The notes under the pieces were generated by a model, which saw only the letters and a list, made by a program, of their open reading frames with translations, was not told the DNA's origin and did not search any database. 64,000 nt of DNA from Undaria pinnatifida. Its lineage: Eukaryota > Sar > Phaeophyceae > Laminariales > Alariaceae. Both the position numbers and the translations under genes were made by a program. Below, in pieces: positions 10,001 to 64,000 of this stretch. Where the stretch lies: contig JABAKD010000006.1 of the NCBI GenBank assembly GCA_012845835.1, forward strand, positions 1,720,116 through 1,784,115, written 5' to 3'. Each line of letters opens with the position of its first letter. Within the stretch, counting starts at the first letter, position 1.

Positions 10001-11007
10001 CCCTTTCGAACAAAACACACTGCAAATCGAGGCACTTCATGAAATCTTGCCCACCCCAACACTATACCAGATGAATAAAGTATAACGCGAGCTGGCAAAG
10101 ACGCCACCGCTGGGGAGAGGTCCAGACCGGTGTTTCAAAGCGGTCTCCCTCCAGGCGAGTAGAGTGCATGCAACGGAAATGGCCACTTTGAGAGGAACTC
10201 CTCCAGAGTTGCACGTAGGCATATATATCGTTCATTCGCCCGTGAGACATCTCACGTTATAGACCAGATGTCACTGTTTTAGCTCAACGTTTTCTTGTGG
10301 CCACCGGAACTCCCCAAGCGAGGAACTAACGTCTTGCATGACCCGTTTACGAGTATGTTTGGTGTGTTAACAGGGATAGCGCCAGGAAGGATCGGTCCGG
10401 TTGCGCGCGATTGAGTGCCTTCGGGGCCACGTTTCGGCGAAGATGTGTTGCTCCTCGTTTTTGGAGGGTCAGAAACGTCCGCTGCACGACAACCGTGGGA
10501 TGGCTCTTGTTCGATATACACACCTTGCCAATCGTCCGAGGAAGCAACTTCGTTGGCCTTATAGCAATAGTTTCCGCCGTTCGACGACACGTGCTACGAT
10601 AGAGGAAATATATTCCGGCTGTTTTCGTTCAGAAATACGGGGCTCCATAGATCGAAATCGGAGGAATTGTATTAAATTCTGCTCCCAAGAAAAAAATTTG
10701 GTGTACCTAGGTCATGGGTTTGTCCATGACAAAAGCGCTTTCATGTTTTGAAGCTCAGTTTTAGTGCGAGGTGTATAGAGTGCTTATACTGCCGCTTCTC
10801 AAGTGCGGAGGGTCTGAACGAAAAAAGATAAACCTCTGTCGCAGACCTATGTCCGTCTCCTATCCACACTGTATACAAGTGGAGAAGTATTGTTGTTTTT
10901 CTTCGTGATGTAACTCTGAGCCTGATCGACTAACATCGTCTTGATTGTCGAGCTTCAGCTGGTGGTGGTGCTCGTTAGAAGGACATGTAGACTATATGAT
11001 ATAAAAA
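7073..11007. other. Intron 2, left part: no recognised feature
   Basis: No convincing domain, RNA gene or repeat. Several minus-strand open stretches (7,090-7,330, 7,350-7,540, 8,030-8,165, 8,540-8,620, 9,510-9,876, 10,280-10,590) have donor-like sites nearby but no recognisable protein similarity. They could include small exons that I cannot confirm. Confidence 0.3.
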
Positions 11008-28650: not shown

Positions 28651-29150
28651 CACTATCGTGGAACCTCTATTACTAATGGACAGAAGTTCCAGGTATATAG
28701 TTGAGGATCACAAATAGGTTACACTTAAGCTCAATCATCAAAGACGAGCGAAATCCGTAGCAAGTCAGACTGTAAAACCGAGCGTATGACAGCGAGCAGA
28801 GGCTGCCGCAGGCTAAAAACAGTGTGCGCGTACCGTGCGAAATCCGTTTATCATAAATCTAGTTTTTACGTCTCAGAGCATCTTACGTTTGTCTTAGCGC
28901 GCCTTGCATTCGTCTTAGCTCGTCTAAAAATCTTCTTCGTGTGTCTTAAATTCGTCTTGGCGCGTTTGTTTCATCAATTTTGGTCTATGAGGCCATTTCT
29001 TATGCAGTCGGATTCCGCCAGTCGAAAACGGCCTTTTTCGACTGGAGGACTGTTTTTCGACTGGATTCTTCTGGTCTTTCTTCTTATCGTCAGTCGAGTC
29101 GATTCTCAGTTCTATAGTTTTTGTGCTCTTCCTGTGTGTGTGTGTTCTTC

Positions 29151-29512
29151 ACATTAAACCGTTCTTCTACTCGTCGACATCCAGCACACCCAGTGTCCGT
29201 ACTGATTCTTCACCCTAGAAAGATCAGCTCTGTGGTCACAAGCCACGACACAGAGATAATGCATCGTAATGCATTCGACAACGCAATGTCATGCCCTAGT
29301 ACTGGGTACGACAGGCACAACATACATACGTCAGCAACAGAAATACATTGGAAGAGAGAAATACGAAATAAACAAAAACAAAAACAAAAACAAAAAACAA
29401 AAACAAAATAAGAAAACAAATAAAAACAAAGATAAAAATAAAACAAAAAATGAAACAAACAAAATGAAGGGGAAATCGAAGAAACAACCCAACCGGAAAG
29501 GAGAGCCAAAGC
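29151..29512 (+). repeat. Dispersed repeat E, copy 1 (inverted partner at 63,645-64,000)
   Basis: About 360 nt with only about four differences from the reverse complement of the window's right end. Starts TCACATTAAACCGTTCTTC and runs through an (AAACA)n-like stretch to CGGAAAGGAGAGCCAA. Could be part of an LTR element whose ends are not both visible here. Confidence 0.8.
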
Positions 29513-30071: not shown

Positions 30072-30341
30072 TGTGAAATTAATAGGTGGGGGACACAGAG
30101 TGCCCCCTGCAGGTCTGCCAATTGAGCAGGTCTTCGGGGAGTACTCACTTTCGTTCCTTCGTAGAGATGTAGCTTTATTCGTTTCCACCAGAGCCCGGGA
30201 TAGCTTCTGAGATCGGAGGCGCGTGCCTCCGATCTAATTCCTAACTTCCCCGAATATAAACCGCCAACCTTATCATACGAAACCCATCCAAATGATCTCA
30301 AATTCGGATACCTACAGGCCTTTCGAGGCCGTATCTTAACA
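30072..30341 (-). repeat. LTR (3' LTR of the minus-oriented TRIM)
   Basis: On the plus strand begins TGTGAAATTAATAGG and ends CGTATCTTAACA, so on the minus strand it is TGTTAAG...CACA with the usual TG/CA ends. A purine-rich AGGGTGGG precedes it on the minus strand (30,346-30,356), fitting a polypurine tract. Confidence 0.9.
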
Positions 30342-31171: not shown

Positions 31172-31441
31172 TGTGAAATTAATAGGTGGGGGACACAGAG
31201 TGCCCCCTGCAGGTCTGCCAATTGAGCAGGTCTTCGGGGAGTACTCACTTTCGTTCCTTCGTAGAGATGTAGCTTTATTCGTTTCCACCAGAGCCCGGGA
31301 TAGCTTCTGAGATCGGAGGCGCGTGCCTCCGATCTAATTCCTAACTTCCCCGAATATAAACCGCCAACCTTATCATACGAAACCCATCCAAATGATCTCA
31401 AATTCGGATACCTACAGGCCTTTCGAGGCCGTATCTTAACA
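31172..31441 (-). repeat. LTR (5' LTR of the minus-oriented TRIM)
   Basis: Identical to 30,072-30,341. Followed (minus sense) after two bases by the primer-binding site. Confidence 0.9.
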
Positions 31442-35780: not shown

Positions 35781-36374
35781 GTGAGATCAAAGATATGAAG
35801 CAGCTTGTTATACGCGTGGTGCTAGGTCTAGGCGATCGTGCAGGTGGTCGGAAAAGAGGCGACGTTGGAGGGGCTATTATATAAAATGAAAATACACTCC
35901 AGCTGTGAGATCGAAGATTTCGTCGAAACCCGTCTTTGCAAGCTGTGTGTGATACTCCGATCGCGCGTATTACGGGTTGTGTGTCCTCATTAGGGATATA
36001 GGTCGGCGACTCCCCTTTCAACTACAGTGTAGCTATCAGGGTCAACAGGGTGATTTTAGTCAGTCTGTGCGCGAAAACTATAAAACCCGTTTCTGAGGGG
36101 GACAAAATCTCACAGCTGTCGAGGGAAATGTATCATTTTATCAAGTGAATCCTGCAAGTCGAATAACCGGTGAGGGGGGGGGGGCGGAGTTTTGAAGGAC
36201 GTGGGGGGCTGGTTTTGATCAAAAGCGAGCGGGGTTGGAGGGGGGGGGGGGGAAAGGGGGGGAAGGCGGACTGGCGGGCAATTTGTGCATGTAAGCTATA
36301 AATCCTTTCAAACAAGGGGATAAATCTGACGGTATTTTGGGAAAAAAAAAAAAAAAAATGCACCAGTTTATTAT

Positions 36375-36413
<39 letters not shown>

Positions 36414-37233
36414 GGGGGGGGGGATGGGGCGTGTGGGGCGGCTCAATATATGCGTGGAAACTTTACATTTTTTTGAGGGACAAATGTGACGGTTTTGGAA
36501 GTAATGCATCAGTTTATCATGTATATTCTGGGGTAGCTCGTACAATCAGTGAGTAGAGAGAGGGCGAAGTGTTCGAGGGGGTGGGGTCGGGATGTGTTGG
36601 GGGGGTTTAGGGAGGTGGGGGTGGCGGCGGGATGGGGGCGGGGGGGGGGGGGCGGGGGGGGGGGCGGGGGGGGGGGGGGGGGGGGGGGGGGGGAGGAAGG
36701 GTTTTAGGTGAGGGGTTTGTTATACGTGTGGTGCTAGGTCTAGGCGATGGTGCGGGTGGTGGGGAAGAAGGGGGCGTTCGGTGCGGGGGGAGGGGGAAAG
36801 CAGCGGCATGGATGGCTCTCGAAAGATAATATGCTGTGCGTGAAGAGTTTACTAATATGGCGGATTTCGATATTAGGTGGGGCGTTTGAGCAAGGGAGAG
36901 CGACAACGGGGGGGGGGTGGGGGGAGATTTTTCAAGAGGTTTAGGTCACAAACAACTTTTTCAAATACACTTCGGCTGTGAGATCAAAGATATGTAGGGG
37001 CTTGTTGTATGCGTGGTGCTAGGTCTAGGCGATCGTGCGGGTGGTTGGAGAAGACGGGAGGTTGGAGGGGGGGGGTTTTGCGGGGGGGTGGGGGGGAAGA
37101 AATGAAAACTACGTCATGGATGGTCAGAAAGATAATGACGTGATATCAACTGCGTATAGGTGTTTATTACTCAGGCCGATTTCGATTGTGAGTGGGGCGT
37201 TTTGTTTGGACAAACTAGGCGGAAGGGGGGGGA

Positions 37234-37265
<32 letters not shown>

Positions 37266-38035
37266 GGGGGGCGGGGGGGGGGGGGGGGCGCGGGGAGGAC
37301 GGGAGGGGGCGGGGGGGGCGGGAGGAAGGGTTTTAGGTGAGGGGTTTATTAAACGTGTGGTGCTAGGTCTAGGCGATGGTGCGGGGTGGTGGGAAAAAAG
37401 GGGGCGTTCGGGGCGGGGGGGGGGAAAGCAGCGGCATGAATGGCTCTCGAAAGATAATGAGGTGATATCCTGTGCGTGAAGTGTTTACTAATATGGCGGA
37501 TTTCGATATTAGGTGGGGCGTTTGAGCAAGGGAGAGCGAGAACGGGGGGGGGGGTGGGGGGAGATTTTTTAGGAGGTTTAGGTCACAAATAATGTTCAAA
37601 TACACTTCGGCTGTGAGATCAAAGATATGTAGGGGCTTGTTATATGCGTGGTGCTAGGTCTAGGCGATCGTGCGGGTGGTTGGAAAAGACGGGGCGTTGG
37701 AGGGGTTTTATTTGGGGGGGGGTGGGGGGAAAGAAATGAACACTACGTCATGGATGGTCAGAAAGGTAAGACGTGATATCAACTGCGTGTAGGTGTTTAT
37801 TACTCTGGCCGATTTCGATTGTGAGTGGGGCGTTTGGACAAACTAGGCGGAAGGGGGGGGGATCGGGGGACAGGGGGGGGGGGGGGGGGGAATGGGTGGG
37901 GTTTTAAATGAACAAGAGGGGTCAGGGGAGGGGGAGGGGAGGGGGGGGGGGGCGGGGGGCGGGACATTTCAATATGTGCGCGGAAACTATAAATCCTCAA
38001 AGGGGACAAACCTGACGATTGAAGCAATAAGACAT
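35781..38035 (+). mobile_element. Poly-G modular repeat, long plus-oriented array
   Basis: Begins with module remnants and a new full head at about 35,888. Body modules follow, separated by G tracts, including a 38-nt G homopolymer at 36,375-36,412, and module C is repeated three times (about 36,715, 37,345 and 37,640). Ends with GGAAACTATAAATCCTCAAA and ACAAACCTGACGATTG near 38,010. Gly-rich and Pro-rich open frames here are artefacts. Confidence 0.8.
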
Positions 38036-46966: not shown

Positions 46967-46968
46967 GT

Positions 46969-47410
46969 TGCGGCGGATTGACATGACGTCACATGAAACC
47001 CCGTGGCGGAATGCTGCCGAGGTCTGTATAACGCCGATCAGTCTAGAAAGCGTGCCGCTCACGGCCTCAGCCCAAAAACAAACGAAACCAAACGAGAAAA
47101 AAAAGAACCTGAACTTGATTTGGCGCGCGTGAGTGACTGCGAACCGAGCTTGAGTACAGCGATCGTTACCGTGAGGCATTGTTGGAGGTTTCATCCGGAG
47201 ATATGTTATATTGTACGAGCGCTTGGAAGAGGACTGCGTGAGACGAGACTGGTGTTTGCAGGCAGCTGTTGCAACAAGCAGACGGGAGGAATCAGCCTGA
47301 AGGTAGACACGGAGGAAACGAACTATTAATAGAGGCGGTGAGAGAGTTGGGACAAGGGATTGGAGACTTGGGTACGTGTGTCTAAAATAGCTCATTAATC
47401 GTTCGTTACA
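46969..47410 (+). repeat. 5' LTR of the gypsy element
   Basis: 442 bp, TGCGGCGGATTGAC...CGTTCGTTACA, TG/CA ends. Contains the CRE-like palindrome TGACGTCA at the start. The 108-codon open frame within it is not a gene. Confidence 0.92.
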
Positions 47411-50841: not shown

Positions 50842-51837
50842 GTGACTTCCGATTCCGGTGCTGGTGGATACTGAGGCGGGTGGAGGAAACTACGTGTCAC
50901 GGCAGTTCATCGACCCATTGAAGAACGTGATAGTTGGAGAAAGTCGCTGATAAATCCAACGGGAGACGGCCTACTCCGCACAGCAAACCCAAAGTACAGC
51001 GCCGTAACCCCGATGGAAGTAGTAGGCTCGTGCTTGCTGCCACTAGTCTTTGCACCGGTCGATCAAATATTCCGTGTGAAGTTCAGGGTGGTGAAAGGAC
51101 TTCCGTATGCGATAGTGCTTGGAGCCGCGTTCATGAAGGACAATCGAAGTATCATCAGTTTCGATGGCGAGGAGGATTTCCGGCCGACACGATCCTCATC
51201 GTGGGTACCATTCGCCCCGAAAGAGGTCAGAGAGGCCGCGGCAGGAGCGATGTGTGCCGAATGGGACCGCTATTGCGCGGTGAAACCGTCAACGGGCAAG
51301 CAAGAAGCGGAAGAATTTGAGAAACCGAAGATCCCGGCGGGGATTATGGAGTTAGGAAACTCTGTTCGGGAGGACGAACGCACTCTGCACTGGAATCTAC
51401 GCATTGCGAAAGACGTAGAGGTTCCAGGTGGTACCAGTATCCAGGTAGACGCTTTTGTCAAAGGCCCTCAACCTCAAGTACAGCAGCTCGTAGTGGTAGA
51501 ACCAACTAACCGCTATGAGCTTCAACTAGGAGTGGATCTAGGAGTGCCAAGGGCACAGTGGTGGTTCCCAGGTATACCACTTCAATGTAAGTTGTCGAAT
51601 GTTACCCAGGATAATATGAAGATCCAGCGGGGGCTGGTTATTGCGACGGTTTACGCTGTTAACAATTACGATCGGGAACGCATGAAGTCACTCATGAACC
51701 CGATGTCGGAGAAACCGACCAGCCCTTATATCAAAAAGAAAGACAAAGGGAGACCACCGGAGCAATGCAACAAAGGGGGTGAAATCGCAGAGATTTCGAG
51801 CGAAGACCCCAAGGTTGACCTTGAAGAGGCCAACTAA
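50842..51837 (+). pseudogene. Aspartic protease and linker of the gypsy element, broken
   Basis: The flap-side start reads PVLVDTEAGGGNYVSRQFI (50,852-50,908). The catalytic triad normally reads D-T/S-G-A and is here D-T-E-A, so the active site is altered. A TGA follows at 50,948. The open frame from 51,013 continues with YAIVLGAAFMKDNRSIISF, the second conserved protease block, then a ~200-residue linker to VDLEEAN and a stop at 51,837. A tandem duplication of AACT (51,834-51,841) causes that stop and shifts the frame into RT. Confidence 0.65.
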
Positions 51838-52840
51838 CTTCGGACAGCTCAGTCCGAGCAAAAAGGACACATTGATAGGCATTCCCAACGAGTACATCGA
51901 CGTGCTCGCGGTCAACCCCAATAGCGTACCAGCGTGCAAAGGAGTGCCCATGCGACTGGAGCTCAAAAATCCCAACGTCAAGCCATACGTGGCGCCCATT
52001 CGACCCTTCAGCCCGGAACAGCGCGAGATGATTCAGACTGAGGTGATGAAGCTCCTGAAGAATGGATCCATTCGGGAATCAACTTCCGAGTGGGCCGCCA
52101 ATTGCTTGACGGTTCGCAAGAAAGATGGGACAGTGCGGGTTGTGCAGGATTTTCGAGGTATCAATGCGCTTCTCAAATCACAGAGTGGTGGACTCGGAGA
52201 CTTGCATCATATTATGGATGAGATGGAAGGGTCGAAATATTTCTCCAGCATCGATTTAGCTTCAGGATTCTTACAGCTAGAGATCCATGAGGATGATCGA
52301 CACCTGACGGCATTTCGAGACGCTGACGGGAAGCTGTACGAATACGTTCGCTGCGGCTTCGGATTGAAGATAGTGCCTTCGGCGTTTGCCAAATACGTTG
52401 GAGGGCGACTGTTAACCGTCAAGGATAGGGGAATCGAGAACTGGTTGGACGACATCGCCATCCCGTCGAAAACCATTGAAGGTCAATGAGGACTGCTGCG
52501 AGAAACGTTAGAGTGTCTAAAGCAAGGACGGTTAGCCGTAAATGTTCAGAAATCGCATTTCTGTCAGTCGGTCATGGAGTTCGTCGGCATGATCGTGGAT
52601 AGACTTGGTACCAGGCCAGCCCCGAGCAAGATCGATGCTATCACACAGCTATCCAGGCCGAACACGGTGGAGGAAGTGCGAGTGTTGCTGGGCATGACAG
52701 GGTACTTACGACAATTCGTACCCCAGTATAGCACAGTGGTGGCGCCCATTTCCGACTTGTTGAGAGATCCAAGGGTTCAGAACCAAGAGAGCGAAGAAAG
52801 AGAAAGTCCCATGGGGAGAAGAGCAGAAAAAAGTTTTTGA
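51779..52840 (+). pseudogene. Reverse transcriptase of the gypsy element (one internal stop)
   Basis: Conserved blocks in order: SVPACKGVPMRLELK, LLKNGSIRESTSEWA, TVRKKDGTVRVVQDFRG, YFSSIDLASGFLQLEIHEDD (catalytic Asp of motif A), YVRCGFGLKIVPSAFA, and the catalytic box NWLDDIAIPS. Here the usual Tyr/Val before x-DD is Trp-Leu. A TGA at 52,487-52,489 interrupts the frame, which then continues through SHFCQSVMEFVGMIVDRLG and LLGMTGYLRQFVPQYS (thumb and connection). A frameshift near 52,775 leads into the RNase H frame. Confidence 0.88.
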
Positions 52841-53280
52841 TGCGCTTATCGAAGCTTTCACGTCACCTCCAATCCTAGCCCTGCCGTTGTGGACAGAGCC
52901 GTCCTCGCTGTCTACCGATGCCCGTGAGGTAGGGGCAGGAGCGGTGCTAACACAATGCATCGAAGGAGTGGAAAAGGTAATCGCGTATGGCAGCAAAAGG
53001 TGGTCGAGAGGAGACTCCAAAATATCAGCAACGGACCGTGAATGCATGGCGATCATGTGGGCAGTGAGCAAGTTCCAACCCTATCTTTGGGGGCGACCGT
53101 TCACGCTCATCACGGACTGTTCAGCGTTGACTTGGCTCTTCAAAAGCCAATATCTCACTCCGAAATACCATTGCTGGGCTCTGAGGTTGATGGAGCACGA
53201 CATAACCTTGAAGTGGCGGCCGGGGACACAACTTCAGCCCCCAGACGCCATGTCGCGGTTACCGAACAAGGGCATCGTAA
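52840..53280 (+). CDS. RNase H domain of the gypsy element (N-terminal part of a 680-codon frame)
   Basis: Frame open from about 52,778 and shared with the downstream methyltransferase. All four catalytic acids are visible: Asp in STDAREVGAGAVL, Glu in ATDRECMAIMWAV, Asp in LITDCSALTWLF, Asp in QPPDAMSRLPN. KWRPGTQLQPPDAMSRLPN is the standard end of gypsy RNase H. No conventional start codon is expected, since it is made as part of Pol. Confidence 0.88.
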
Positions 53281-53505
53281 TCGAATATTTCAACGACTCT
53301 TTCCCAGGAGACGAGTCGTTGCCAAACGTTTACAAAGGGCCACAGGGGCCAGTGCTCGACGGCAAACACCTCGAAACCCTGGGAGTGGAAGATGTGGACA
53401 GAACTAGCACTCAAAGTCTTGCAGCACTTGCAGCTGTCGCATTCACACCCGCAGACCCATCAGGGACAAATACTCAACAGGCCGAGCTTGTCATCGCAAC
53501 GGAGC

Positions 53506-54480
53506 TTCCAGTGATGGTCATGCTCGACTGTGGGGGGGGAGGCAGCATCCTTGCATCAGAGGGGTTGCTGACGGTCAGAGGAGCAGTAGACCAGGACTGG
53601 AGAGCACTAGAATACATCAGAGCAAACGGACTAGACAAAGGTGCAAAGCTACTTAGGGTGACAACAGGGTCGCCGGAATGCCTAATCATGTTGAGAGAGG
53701 TGAAACCAGACGTGGTGGTCGGTGACGCCTGCAGGAGTTTTGAAAGGATACGAGAGAAGGAGGGAATATCCGGAGCGAGTAGCCTAGTCCAAGCTGCTAT
53801 CGTTATAGACGCGCGGGTTTTCATCCTCGAATGTTTTGGCAACCTTCTGCGAACGACGGTATGGAATGACGAAATTCTCCCCGCTTTGGAACGAGAGTCA
53901 ATCATCGTGGACAAAGCGGAGATACTAGCGAGCCAAGTAGGGATTCCGTGGAGAAGGAAACGGACATTCGTGGTAAGAATCAAGGGAGGCCTTGCCACAA
54001 AAGGGAAGTTAGCCGTTTGGAAGCGGAGGTTGGAGAAAGTAAAGCAGAAAGTTCAGCAATTAGGGGAATTTCTGGGACGAAGAGGCGCATACTTCTTGAA
54101 ACGAGGTAACGGAGAGCGAGCAACTTACTCGTTCAACGAACCCATCATCTCTTTGAACCGTGCTCACGTCATGGGAGAAAAGCCAACCGAAGGGTATATC
54201 GCACACCCAGCGGATGCGGCACGCCTTGAAGAAGCCGAAGAGTTGCATTTCAACGACTACGCCAAAATCACCACAGGGCAGGAGCACTACGTGATCCCAC
54301 AGACGGTTAGCAAAAGCGCAGCGGCAAACGTCATCTCAGATTTCACGTCTCCTCCAATGTTACGAGCAGTATTAGTTAAACGAGCTGTTCAAGGCTTACT
54401 GGGAAAACCGGTACCAGAGGTCGCGGAACTAGAAGGATTGGTCTGCATGGTGTTAGAAGATTACCTCGCAGCATCAAAAG
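53506..54480 (+). CDS. Cytosine-5 DNA methyltransferase domain within gypsy pol
   Basis: In frame with RNase H (frame 52,887-54,926; residue numbers from 52,887). Motif I MLDCGGGGSILASEG (212-226) and motif II AVDQDWRALEYIRANG bind AdoMet. Motif IV is DVVVGDACRSFE with the catalytic Cys at 282 (canonical GxPPCQ, here GDACR). Motif VI is FILECFGNLLRT, Glu 315 (canonical ENV). Motif VIII is VGIPWRRKRTFVV, ending Arg 359 (canonical QRRxR). A target-recognition-like stretch follows, with YSFNEPIISLNRAH. Motif IX/X-like HPADAARLEE and QTVSKSAAANVI come before SPPMLRAVL. Motif spacings (33 and 44 residues) are close to those of bacterial 5mC enzymes. It would methylate cytosine in DNA, perhaps the element's own cDNA; activity is uncertain given the altered PC, ENV and Q positions. 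Confidence 0.8.
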
Positions 54481-54926
54481 CCTTTGAGGTGACAAGAGCG
54501 GTCACGAGATCGCAGGCAAAGGCCACTTTCCAGGGACCGGAGGTTGTCTGGGAGGCACAACCGCCGTTACCTGAGGAGGAGGAGATGGAGAATGCAACGG
54601 CGCAGACGGTCACTACTACTGAAATACCAGTGGAAGTTGATCGCCCACGCAAACGCAGGGGACAGAGAGAGCCCATCCCGAGACCGAAACGGCAACGTGA
54701 CCCGTTGGGAGAATCATCAAAGGACACCAGCAGCCCGTTAAGCGGATCAGGGAAAGAAGCCAAGGGACCCCAGCGGTCAGAGCCATCCATGTTGGAAAGG
54801 GTGACAGCTATTCTCCAGGATTTGCCACAGCTGACGCAGAGGCAGTCCGAAGATATGGTACTTGGCAAGATTCGGAAAAACTCCAGGAAGTGGGAAACCG
54901 AGGATCAGGAGGTGGTGAATATGTGA
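54481..54926 (+). CDS. Basic/acidic linker between methyltransferase and integrase
   Basis: Same frame as the methyltransferase. Low complexity: LPEEEEMENATAQ, then VDRPRKRRGQREPIPRPKRQ (a candidate nuclear localisation signal), Ser-rich, ending in LPQLTQRQSEDMVLGK before a stop at 54,926. The integrase continues in another frame from about 54,890. Confidence 0.6.
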
Positions 54927-55973
54927 TGGATGATAATGGGCTCTTGTGGATGGCACCTCGGGGAAAGATCCCACGACTTGCAGTTCCCCGATCTCTCGTT
55001 CCAGGGATTATGGCGCTGGCGCACAGCACCTATGGGCATCCGGGGACGGCACGAACTACAGCCTTGATAAGTCATCGGTACTGCTGGTCCAACCTCATGA
55101 AGGACGTTAGAGACTACGTCCTCTCGTGTGGGTGCAGACGTCGCAAGCGGTCAGCGAGTCAACGGGTTGCCATGCTACCGTCAAGGTTTCTACGACCCGG
55201 GGAAGTACTCGAAGTCGACATCCAGGACATGGGGGTGAAGTCAGACGCAGGCAACAAAGTTCTACTTGTAGCAGCCGACAAAGCCAGCATGTTCTTGTTC
55301 GCCTTTCCACTTCCCTACGAAAGAAGCAATCGGAGTAGCGAGGAAACTGCTCGAAGTGATGCTTACTTTTGGGCTACCGCTGTATGTTCGCAGTGATCCG
55401 GGATCCGAGTTCACGGCAGAGGTGATGCAACACTTATGTAAGTGGTTGAACGTGAGCATCGCCTATGGGCCTGCCGATCATCTACGTGGACAGGGGGCGT
55501 TGGAGAGACTGGGGGGGTGGCTACACGAAGCACTAGGAGAACTGTGCAAGACCTGGCCTCGCAGATGGGACGAGTACGCACAACCGGCACTGTGGATCCA
55601 TCGTACCACGCCGGACCTGCGCCTACCGAGGAAGCCAACGCCCTTCCGTGTTTTCTTCCGTCGTGATGCACGCACGCAACTTGATGCTGCGCACCCCGAG
55701 GTAGATGGTGGTGATGTCAGAGGCGGGATGCACGGTTACGTGGCCGACAAACGTCAAGCATACAAAGAGGTACGGGATGTACGGATGGGTCAATCGAAAA
55801 GACATGAAGGCAGGCAGAAATATCGTGAGAGTCGGAATGCTGAAATCGGTCGGACCTCGGTGGGAACCCGTGTTGTTGTCGGAGATAATGTGCTGGTGAA
55901 GGAGGCGGAGTCTGTGATGGAAAGGGAAGGGATACATCATAAACTGGCCCACGAGCACTGGACCGGACCTTGA
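54890..55973 (+). pseudogene. Integrase of the gypsy element (zinc finger and catalytic core, frameshifted)
   Basis: The zinc-binding N-domain has HSTYGHPG...SHRYCW...YVLSCGCRRRKR; the second pair is C-x1-C where C-x2-C is usual. The catalytic core has the first Asp in LEVDIQDMG (about 55,217), the second in YVRSDPGSEFTAEVM (about 55,395) and the Glu in QGALERLGGWLHEA (about 55,504). A frameshift near 55,325 separates the first and second acids. A helical region with TPFRVFFRRDAR and an SH3-like end LAHEHWTGP follow. A TGA at 55,971 stands where relatives have Trp. Confidence 0.85.
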
Positions 55974-56393: not shown

Positions 56394-56635
56394 CGCGGAA
56401 GGAAAGAGATGGGATCGACCGCGAACAAGCGTTGAAACAACACCCCGTGGGGACCGTGATCCGGAGGGAATTCGCGGACGCTGAAGGAAACAAAAAGCGC
56501 CACCTTTCAAAGGTCTTCGACTACAAGTCACCGTACTGGCGGATTCGGTGCGCAGACGGAGATTGGGAGGAGCTCAACGAACGTGAAATCCTGAAAGGTA
56601 GGAACACCGGAAATTCGCAATCCGGTCCCCCTTAA
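56228..56635 (+). CDS. C-terminal Tudor-like module of gypsy pol
   Basis: In this frame the informative part is 56,430-56,610: HPVGTVIRREFADAEGNKK, VFDYKSPYWRIRCADGDWEE, LNEREIL. The pattern G..v.r.F....g......V..Y..PYWr.ryeDGD.Eel...El is that of the small Tudor-like domain of plant PTM/DIR17 proteins, which is also found at the ends of some retrotransposon polyproteins. Suggests a second chromatin-reading module after the chromodomain. Residues before 56,400 in this frame mostly shadow the chromodomain frame. Confidence 0.6.
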   Translation: MEVAIQGTIRGWHKVAVAVRRGGTRQLHPFTVGRFHALWETYHGAECRARPTSTLTRKERDGIDREQALKQHPVGTVIRREFADAEGNKKRHLSKVFDYKSPYWRIRCADGDWEELNEREILKGRNTGNSQSGPP

Positions 56636-57003: not shown

Positions 57004-57016
57004 GCTGGAGGGGTTT
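57004..57016 (+). promoter_or_regulatory. Polypurine tract of the gypsy element
   Basis: GCTGGAGGGGTTT directly before the 3' LTR. A short purine run (GGAGGGG) in the position used to prime plus-strand synthesis. Confidence 0.6.
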
Positions 57017-57452
57017 TGCGGCGGATTGACATGACGTCACATGAACCCCCGTGGCGGAATGCTGCCTAGGTCTGTATAACACCGATCAGTCTAGAAAGCG
57101 TGCCGCTCACGGCCTCAGTCCAAAAACAAACGAAACCAAACGAGGGATACAGGAACCTGAACTTGATCTAACGCGCGTGAGCGACTACGAACCAAGCTTG
57201 AGTACAGCGATCGTCACCGTGAGGCATTGTTGGAGGTTTCATCCGGAGATATGTTGTATTGTACGAGCGCTTGGAAGATGACTGCGTGAGACGAGACTAG
57301 TGTTTGCAGGCAGCTTTTGCAACAAGCAGACGGGAGGAATCAGCCTGAAGGTAGACACGGAGGAAACGAACTAGAAGCGGTGAGAGAGTTGGGACAAGGG
57401 ATCGGAGACTTGGGTACGTGTGTCTAAAATAGCTCTTTATCCGTTCGTTACA
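57017..57452 (+). repeat. 3' LTR of the gypsy element
   Basis: 436 bp; matches the 5' LTR with roughly 5% differences, mostly transitions, plus a 6-bp indel near 57,372. Confidence 0.92.
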
Positions 57453-63530: not shown

Positions 63531-63644
63531 AGCTCTTTGTTCATAGCAGATAGATCATGACTGCTGCTAGTACGTACCAGGTACCAAGTATTAACCCTTG
63601 TCTGATCCCTGGTACGAGCTAACCATCTATTACTACTACTTGGC

Positions 63645-64000
63645 TCTCCTTTCCGGCTGGGTTGTTTCTTCGATTTCCCCTTCATTTTGTTTGTTTCATT
63701 TTTTGTTTTATTTTTATCTTTGTTTTTATTTGTTTTCTTATTTTGTTTTTGTTTTTTGTTTTTGTTTTTGTTTTTGTTTATTTCGTATTTCTCTCTTCCA
63801 ATGTATTTCTGTTGCTGACGTATGTATGTTGTGCCTGTCGTACGCAGTACTAGGGCATGACATTGCGTTGTCGAATGCATTACGATGCATTATCTCTGTG
63901 TCGTAGCTTGTGACCACAGAGCTGATCTTTCTAGGGTGAAGAATCAGCACGGACACTGGGTGTGCTGGATGTCGACGAGTAGAAGAACGGTTTAATGTGA
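63645..64000 (-). repeat. Dispersed repeat E, copy 2 (runs off the window)
   Basis: Reverse complement of 29,151-29,512 with about four differences. It continues to the last base, so the full element extends beyond the right edge. Confidence 0.8.

Follow-up and report, generated by a model that had tools for sequence, protein, structure and literature searches.

Retrotransposons carrying DNA methyltransferase (DNMT) domains have been described in charophytes and dinoflagellates. KnitGypsy-Dnmt3 of Klebsormidium nitens is described as having kept the key residues of the enzyme, as grouping with Dnmt3 and as showing a ratio of non-synonymous to synonymous substitutions (Ka/Ks, or dN/dS) <0.2, and SymbioLINE-Dnmt and SymbioDIRS-Dnmt3 of Symbiodinium as a long interspersed nuclear element (LINE) and a DIRS retrotransposon with DNMT domains whose key residues are functionally conserved (de Mendoza et al. 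2018, PMC5890265). Here, we analyse a Ty3/gypsy long terminal repeat (LTR) retrotransposon of the brown alga Undaria pinnatifida. One copy of it lies in a 64,000-nucleotide stretch of contig JABAKD010000006.1, which we call the window. Between the RNase H and integrase domains of its pol gene, this element codes for an additional domain, which sequence comparisons trace to the cytosine-5 (C5) DNA methyltransferases and which appears to have lost their catalytic residues.

As far as KnitGypsy-Dnmt3 is described in that report, the Undaria element shares with it the class (LTR Gypsy), the insertion of a C5-methyltransferase-derived domain in the Pol frame and the presence of many copies. Unlike KnitGypsy-Dnmt3, it has an altered motif IV as well as other altered motifs, a pooled dN/dS of 0.53 and a host lineage poor in 5-methylcytosine (5mC). 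The Symbiodinium elements are also DNMT-carrying retrotransposons, but they belong to the LINE and DIRS classes and, in the same description, their key residues are conserved. The original prediction, made from the letters of the window alone, had proposed an acquisition independent of the dinoflagellate and charophyte cases, provided that the host belonged to a lineage with little or no 5mC such as brown algae. The element does differ from these cases.

In brown algae, the Tudor-domain Gypsy element Gypsy-10_Ec32 of Ectocarpus (PMC12477816) has in common with the Undaria element, when descriptions are compared, a brown-algal host and a C-terminal Tudor domain, although the matches of family A to the latter are below the cut-off. 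The passages of that source devoted to Gypsy-10_Ec32 mention no methyltransferase-like domain, and two sister elements that we call L080 and L082 represent such a domain-less form in the Undaria genome. The same source describes, in the Ectocarpus DNA transposon Sola1, a methyltransferase of a different kind (N4-cytosine or N6-adenine). In the open-licence literature of PubMed Central (PMC), our searches listed no brown-algal Gypsy element described with a C5-type domain. The Undaria element looks like an independent acquisition, with domain-less sisters in the same genome for comparison. Catalytically inactive relatives of the DNMTs, of the DNMT3L type, are host regulators thought to act without catalysis. 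The Undaria domain would likewise be a C5-methyltransferase relative devoid of catalysis but, unlike them, it resides in a mobile element.

Similarity of the domain to C5-methyltransferases

The domain comprises ~300 residues and is coded by positions 53505..54395 of the window (residues 49-345 of a 397-residue query), on the forward strand like all parts of the element described below. Comparison of the linker with those of domain-less sister elements sets its outer bounds at ~53502-54428. We compared 16 family sequences, i.e. the window copy, 13 loci whose domain is free of stops and two proteins from the database, with profile libraries. PF00145 was matched by 11 of the 16 (E up to 10), the best being the copy L012 (8.8e-5), which aligned over profile positions 8 to 181 and reached 22.5 bits vs a cut-off of 22. 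The NCBIfam dcm family (TIGR00675) was also matched by 11 sequences (best 0.0056), PHROG 363, a DNA methyltransferase family, by 14 (best 1.4e-4) and a second PHROG DNA-methyltransferase family by 11 (best 0.0025). DNA methyltransferase families lead the matches in these three independent libraries (Pfam, NCBIfam and PHROG). For the window copy itself, the best match to a methyltransferase family was PHROG 363 (E 0.0049), and PF00145 gave no match at E<=1 with the whole frame or at E<=10 with the region alone, where these searches gave otherwise insignificant matches.

A profile of the domain was built from 22 sequences of three divergent families, which we call A, B and C (the filter of hhalign kept 12 of them), and a comparison profile from 11 C5-methyltransferases, namely E. 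coli dcm and 10 phage enzymes. The two profiles aligned collinearly from motif I to motif VIII with an E-value of 5.8e-6 and a score of 51.3 (core 1.6e-6). None of 200 column shuffles reached this score (best 21.9), and the reversed alignment scored 18.5. The profiles of single families gave E-values of 2.6e-4 (A), 3.3e-4 (B) and 4.9e-3 (C) against the C5-methyltransferases. No relatives were found in viral contigs. Because the three family libraries agree and the profile-profile score lies beyond all 200 shuffles, these comparisons identify the domain as a descendant of a C5-methyltransferase.

Copies of the element and position of the domain in pol

At least 110 matches to the domain were found in the Undaria genome (104 of 358 candidates scored). 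The best 30 of the 110, hereafter the 30 copies of family A, all have an integrase zinc domain downstream, and 29 of them have an RNase H domain upstream. We also started from RNase H: 150 hits were scored (1275 candidates), of which 112 were close (73% identity or more) and 38 distant (66% or less), and they were set against 128 domain places, i.e. the 110 matches of the first search and 18 that these did not yet cover, chosen from the 124 of a second one. A domain match lay at most 3 kb downstream of at least 91 of the 112 close copies and of 1 of the 38 distant hits. The domain is family-wide in this Gypsy element.

These searches and the profile comparisons bear on several points of the original prediction. 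It claimed a cytosine-5 DNA methyltransferase built into a Ty3/gypsy pol; the library matches and the profile-profile score (51.3 vs 21.9) support a domain derived from such an enzyme, and further gypsy copies with the predicted order of RNase H, methyltransferase and integrase are found in the best 30 loci. A PF00145 match is obtained with the relatives and not with the window copy. The genome does contain closely related copies without the region, in the form of sister lineages and of a deletion subfamily. A chance local insertion is nonetheless ruled out, because at least 91 of the 112 close copies have the domain after RNase H, the genome contains at least 110 matches to it, and it occurs in divergent families (A and B are 40% identical over 268 aligned residues).

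In the protein database, the family profile retrieved 41 relatives, and the family B protein P0036 retrieved 6, itself included. One database protein, P0005, with 133 member sequences, comes from a contig of 1485 bases. It ends in residues that look like sequencing-adaptor read-through, and we presume that some of the database relatives may be raw assemblies.

Catalytic motifs

The canonical motifs of C5-methyltransferases include motif I (F.G.GG), motif IV (GPPCQ.F, with the Pro-Cys nucleophile), motif VI (ENV) and motif VIII (Q.R.R), and E. coli dcm displays them in the profile alignment. In the window copy, motif-like blocks I, IV, VI and VIII follow one another in the order of C5-methyltransferases. 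The motif I-like block, MLDCGGGGSILA (53520..53555), occupies the position of the S-adenosylmethionine (AdoMet) loop and aligns near motif I of dcm; it provides a glycine-rich LDCGGGGS at the expected place, without the Phe of F.G.GG. The motif IV-like block GDACRSF (53721..53741) has Ala-Cys instead of Pro-Cys, the motif VI-like block ILECFGN (53823..53843) has ECF instead of ENV, and the motif VIII-like block IPWRRKR (53943..53963) has a Trp at the Gln position of the canonical.PQ.R.R. The original prediction had placed AdoMet-binding, catalytic-Cys, Glu and RRKR motifs in canonical order and spacing; the order is indeed that of C5-methyltransferases, but the residues are not canonical.

The other copies and families depart from the canonical motifs in several ways. 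At motif IV, family A mostly reads GDAC, with the Cys present in 26 of the 30 copies and preceded by Ala or Thr. All five family B database proteins that cover the site have DAS, with Ser for Cys (GDAS in P0036, P0044 and P0046, RDAS in P0042 and EDAS in P0043), and the two family C loci have HAC (L067) and GDAC (L068). The Pro of Pro-Cys is missing from every sequence of families A, B and C that was compared. Motif VI is EC in all six family B database proteins and in family A, where all 30 copies keep the Glu; it is QC, with Gln for Glu, in both family C loci and in the family B relic L064. Motif VIII is mostly WRRKR in family A, SGKRK in four of six family B proteins and YNRK. in both family C loci; its Gln is replaced in all three families, and its basic residues are partly kept. 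The key catalytic residues are therefore not conserved as in KnitGypsy-Dnmt3, the differences being at motifs IV, VI and VIII. Likewise, although the profile alignment with E. coli Dcm and the phage C5-methyltransferases is collinear over motifs I to VIII, the GPPCQ, ENV and PQ.R.R of these enzymes are not kept. Because the families do not all retain a complete set of catalytic residues, the domain is probably not a working methylase.

Selection on the domain

We determined dN/dS values from 21 of the 30 family A loci. Nine were dropped, seven because their RNase H match was missing, incomplete or split, and two (L013 and L015) as near-copies of L012. Among the 21 copies, the pooled dN/dS is 0.53 for the domain vs 0.47 for RNase H; the linker before the Rossmann-like part of the domain has a value of 0.64, and the C-terminal part has the lowest, 0.37. 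In the comparisons of the domain between families A and C, the proportion of synonymous differences (pS) is 0.76-0.77, i.e. saturated, and that of non-synonymous differences (pN) is 0.38-0.40 over 287-288 codons, with a pN of 0.22-0.26 for RNase H and reverse transcriptase (RT). Between family A and the domain-bearing relic L069, the domain has a dN/dS of 0.21, with a dS of 3.1, and RT has a dN/dS of 0.16. Because synonymous sites are saturated between families while the protein stays similar, these estimates indicate that the domain is old and under long-term selection at the protein level, evolving faster than the core enzymes.

Domain-less sister elements

Four distant elements (L080-L083) proceed from RNase H through a linker directly to the integrase, and the domain is absent from them. 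The hits among these sister Gypsy elements sit in open frames of >1600 codons. From the end of RNase H to the integrase zinc motif, there are 257 residues in L080 vs 603 in the domain-bearing copy L006. The left linkers of the two are homologous (score 143 vs a best of 56 in 500 shuffles), and the right linkers match more weakly (score 64 vs 53 in shuffles). Because the domain-less L080 is shorter in this region and its left linker is homologous, the right one weakly so, the domain would have been captured into the linker.

The Tudor profile PF21743 matches L080 with an E-value of 4.9e-7 and 29.9 bits, the only match over the curated cut-off of 27.2. Matches below the cut-off were obtained with L082 (4.1e-5, 23.7 bits) and with two other family A copies (1.2e-4 and 2.5e-4, 21.2 and 22.2 bits), and the window element has a weak one at 56501..56590 (E 0.042, 14.1 bits). 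Because of the C-terminal Tudor matches in L080, L082 and family A, the element appears to sit near the Tudor-Gypsy lineage, being likened to Gypsy-10_Ec32 by description. We also built an RT-RNase H tree from 13 of 16 rows, leaving out two family B rows that had no RT-RNase H match and L081, which is partial. Families A and C group together (100/100), apart from L080, and the domain-bearing relic L069 joins the domain-less L080 weakly (69/73). Forcing the domain-bearing families together was not rejected (AU, approximately unbiased test, p 0.09).

Proposed conversion of a captured methyltransferase into a Pol module

The reading that we favour, with a probability of about 0.6, is that a captured C5-methyltransferase has turned into a non-catalytic accessory module of the Pol protein of a Tudor-Gypsy-like element. 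An ancestor of the Gypsy lineage would have captured the gene of a cytosine-5 DNA methyltransferase, in frame, within the variable linker that separates RNase H from the integrase. Selection for protein function would then have kept the domain for a long time, with its catalytic machinery decaying meanwhile. The loss of the Pro-Cys loop probably preceded the split of families A, B and C, and families B and C would each have lost one further catalytic residue, if we infer the order of losses correctly. At present, the domain most likely acts within the Pol polyprotein as a module without catalysis, possibly holding nucleic acid or chromatin beside the integrase. More tentatively, it might be a long-selected pseudoenzyme that, in a 5mC-poor host lineage, places or protects the element together with the integrase and the chromatin-reading Tudor domain.

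Several results, including some given with the alternatives below, weigh against this reading. None of the family B and C sequences scanned singly matches PF00145. The controls of the hhalign comparison consisted of shuffles and reversal only, with no other methyltransferase classes; motifs IX and X were placed by eye, and a forced alignment reaches the end of the domain with low confidence. Sequence and profile searches of the PDB with the domain gave nothing relevant, and two AlphaFold models had mean predicted local distance difference test (pLDDT) values of 31.3 and 42.6, below usable quality. In addition, families B and C are known from database fragments or relics. In the family C relics and in L069, the domain is preceded by RNase H, but the stretches retrieved for the family B relics revealed neither RNase H nor RT nor integrase. 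Finally, constraint on the Rossmann-like part among young copies appears weak, as this part has the highest dN/dS in the 21 copies (0.64; bootstrap 0.45-0.93) and, in 10 stop-free copies, a value of 0.74 vs 0.42 for RNase H.

We consider it unlikely that the family A domain is a still-active C5-methyltransferase with an altered motif IV (Ala-Cys-Arg), methylating the cDNA of the element or its target. Family A retains the Cys in 26 of 30 copies and the Glu in all 30, making an unorthodox active site possible, and its R.KR block is mostly kept; however, neither the Pro of the Pro-Cys loop nor the Gln of motif VIII is present, and families B and C lack the Cys or the Glu, yet C at least is still constrained. 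The charophyte and dinoflagellate precedents, as described, do have conserved key residues (PMC5890265). A similar balance is found for the traces that methylation might leave in the DNA. For the domain segments of the 30 copies, the CpG observed/expected ratio lies at 0.81-0.92, but it is 0.96 in the window element vs 1.00 in its left flank. In the 20 most diverged copy pairs, the frequency of C-T differences is 0.116 at CG vs 0.103 and 0.096 (0.073-0.103 overall) elsewhere, but in 399 closer pairs (the pairs are not independent), it is 0.079 at CG vs 0.078 at CC and CT and 0.059 at CA. From these figures, the copies seem to bear no clear footprint of lasting CpG methylation. The proposal that the element methylates its own DNA is thus not supported, given the loss of catalytic residues across families A, B and C and the lack of clear CpG depletion or of a CpG-transition excess. 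The negligible 5mC described in the related brown alga Ectocarpus (PMC12477816) also argues against an active enzyme; for Saccharina, 0.9-1.4% 5mC has been reported (PMC8472486).

It is rather improbable that the domain is a passive passenger in decay, acquired a single time, never of use to the element and maintained because the copies multiply faster than they shed it. The dN/dS of the Rossmann-like part, the nearest to neutral, is in keeping with such a passenger, and so is the deletion subfamily. Seven of the 21 close copies for which no domain match was listed were read, and five of these (L094, L095, L097, L099 and L100) share one common deletion junction, apparently at a short microhomology, by which ~238 codons are gone, from just after motif IV to past the end of the domain. 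The deletions of L096 and L098 are different. The deletion copies have spread without the part after motif IV, and this part is not needed in cis, which is a further point against a useful module. However, four of the five copies carry a TAA at the junction, and the frame of L095 is additionally broken; because of these TAA codons, the deletion copies were probably helped in trans by complete copies. Moreover, saturated synonymous change between families A and C with a pN of just 0.38-0.40, and the 40% identity between families A and B, both need long selection on the protein.

Least probable is a lineage-specific Pol domain whose likeness to methyltransferases arose by chance or by convergence of short motifs: the missing PF00145 match of the window copy, the modest single-sequence E-values with one over the curated cut-off, the lack of a relevant PDB match and the failed structure models would suit it, but not the leading position of DNA methyltransferase families in three independent libraries, nor a collinear profile alignment from motif I to motif VIII that 0 of 200 shuffles reached.

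Organization of the window element

The window element is delimited by a 5' LTR of ~443 bp (46968..47410), which starts near TGCGGCGG and ends with TTACA, and by its partner 3' LTR (57016..57452). The two are 93.0% identical and differ by 25 substitutions and 6 gap columns; no perfect target-site duplication was found at these LTRs. A piece of pol at 51698..52486 codes for RT (RVT_1 residues 139-260, PF00078 9.7e-11) and is followed by a stop and later by a frame change. The open frame that contains the domain extends over 52764..54926 (720 codons plus stop) and begins with RNase H (52812..53195, residues 17-144), matched by PF17919 (1.9e-26, residues 17-115) and PF17917 (3.2e-27, residues 45-144). 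The integrase zinc-binding domain (54983..55147, PF17921 5.8e-14) is coded in another frame, 54701-55396, beyond the end of the RNase H frame at 54926. One uninterrupted frame had been predicted from RNase H through the methyltransferase-like motifs up to the integrase; it does include the motifs, but stops before the integrase. A partial integrase core at 55365..55466 is below the cut-off of PF00665 (E 0.05), which is passed in the copy L006 (1.8e-9). At least this one other copy is uninterrupted: its locus of 4191 bases stays open from end to end and codes for RNase H, the domain and integrase.

The window element thus shows an LTR pair, RT, RNase H and integrase in Ty3/gypsy order, with broken frames, and by its domain order it is a Ty3/gypsy LTR retrotransposon. 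Since its pol is split over several frames, this copy is an old, broken relic.

Other features of the genome and the window

A search of the Undaria genome with PF00145, in which genes are seen exon by exon, gave two matches only, both on contig C33 and outside the element family: L001 (G000:C33:9584045-9584356, 8.1e-16) and L002 (9595022-9595297, 3.9e-6). The two are on opposite strands at a distance of 11 kb. They contain pieces of near-canonical motifs (TGIGG and ENM) in broken frames, and one of them is near a piece that, by eye, is cysteine-rich and MYND-like. This region is perhaps an endogenous viral stretch.

Elsewhere in the window, GC skew is very strong (0.61) at 36001-38000, and a tandem duplication (36599-37263 and 37225-37890) is 89% identical. 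A short repeat family is present at about 10 places on both strands, near 11000, 11640, 16515, 19380, 25650, 34910, 35875, 45710, 58750 and 62835, with pairwise matches of ~250-770 bp at 75-96% identity. There are also an exact 270-bp duplication (30072-30341 and 31172-31441, 1.1 kb apart) and an inverted pair, 29149-29509 and 63640-64000, with 98.9% identity over 361 bp, which is cut by the end of the window.

Significance

The DNMT-carrying retrotransposons described by de Mendoza et al. (PMC5890265) keep their key residues, whereas in the Undaria element, descent from a methyltransferase is visible without conservation of the catalytic residues, in a host lineage with little 5mC. Assays of the single domain could ask whether a methyltransferase benefits such elements by serving as a scaffold for binding. 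If the reading proposed here is true, the capture of methyltransferases by mobile elements may pay through binding rather than through methylation.

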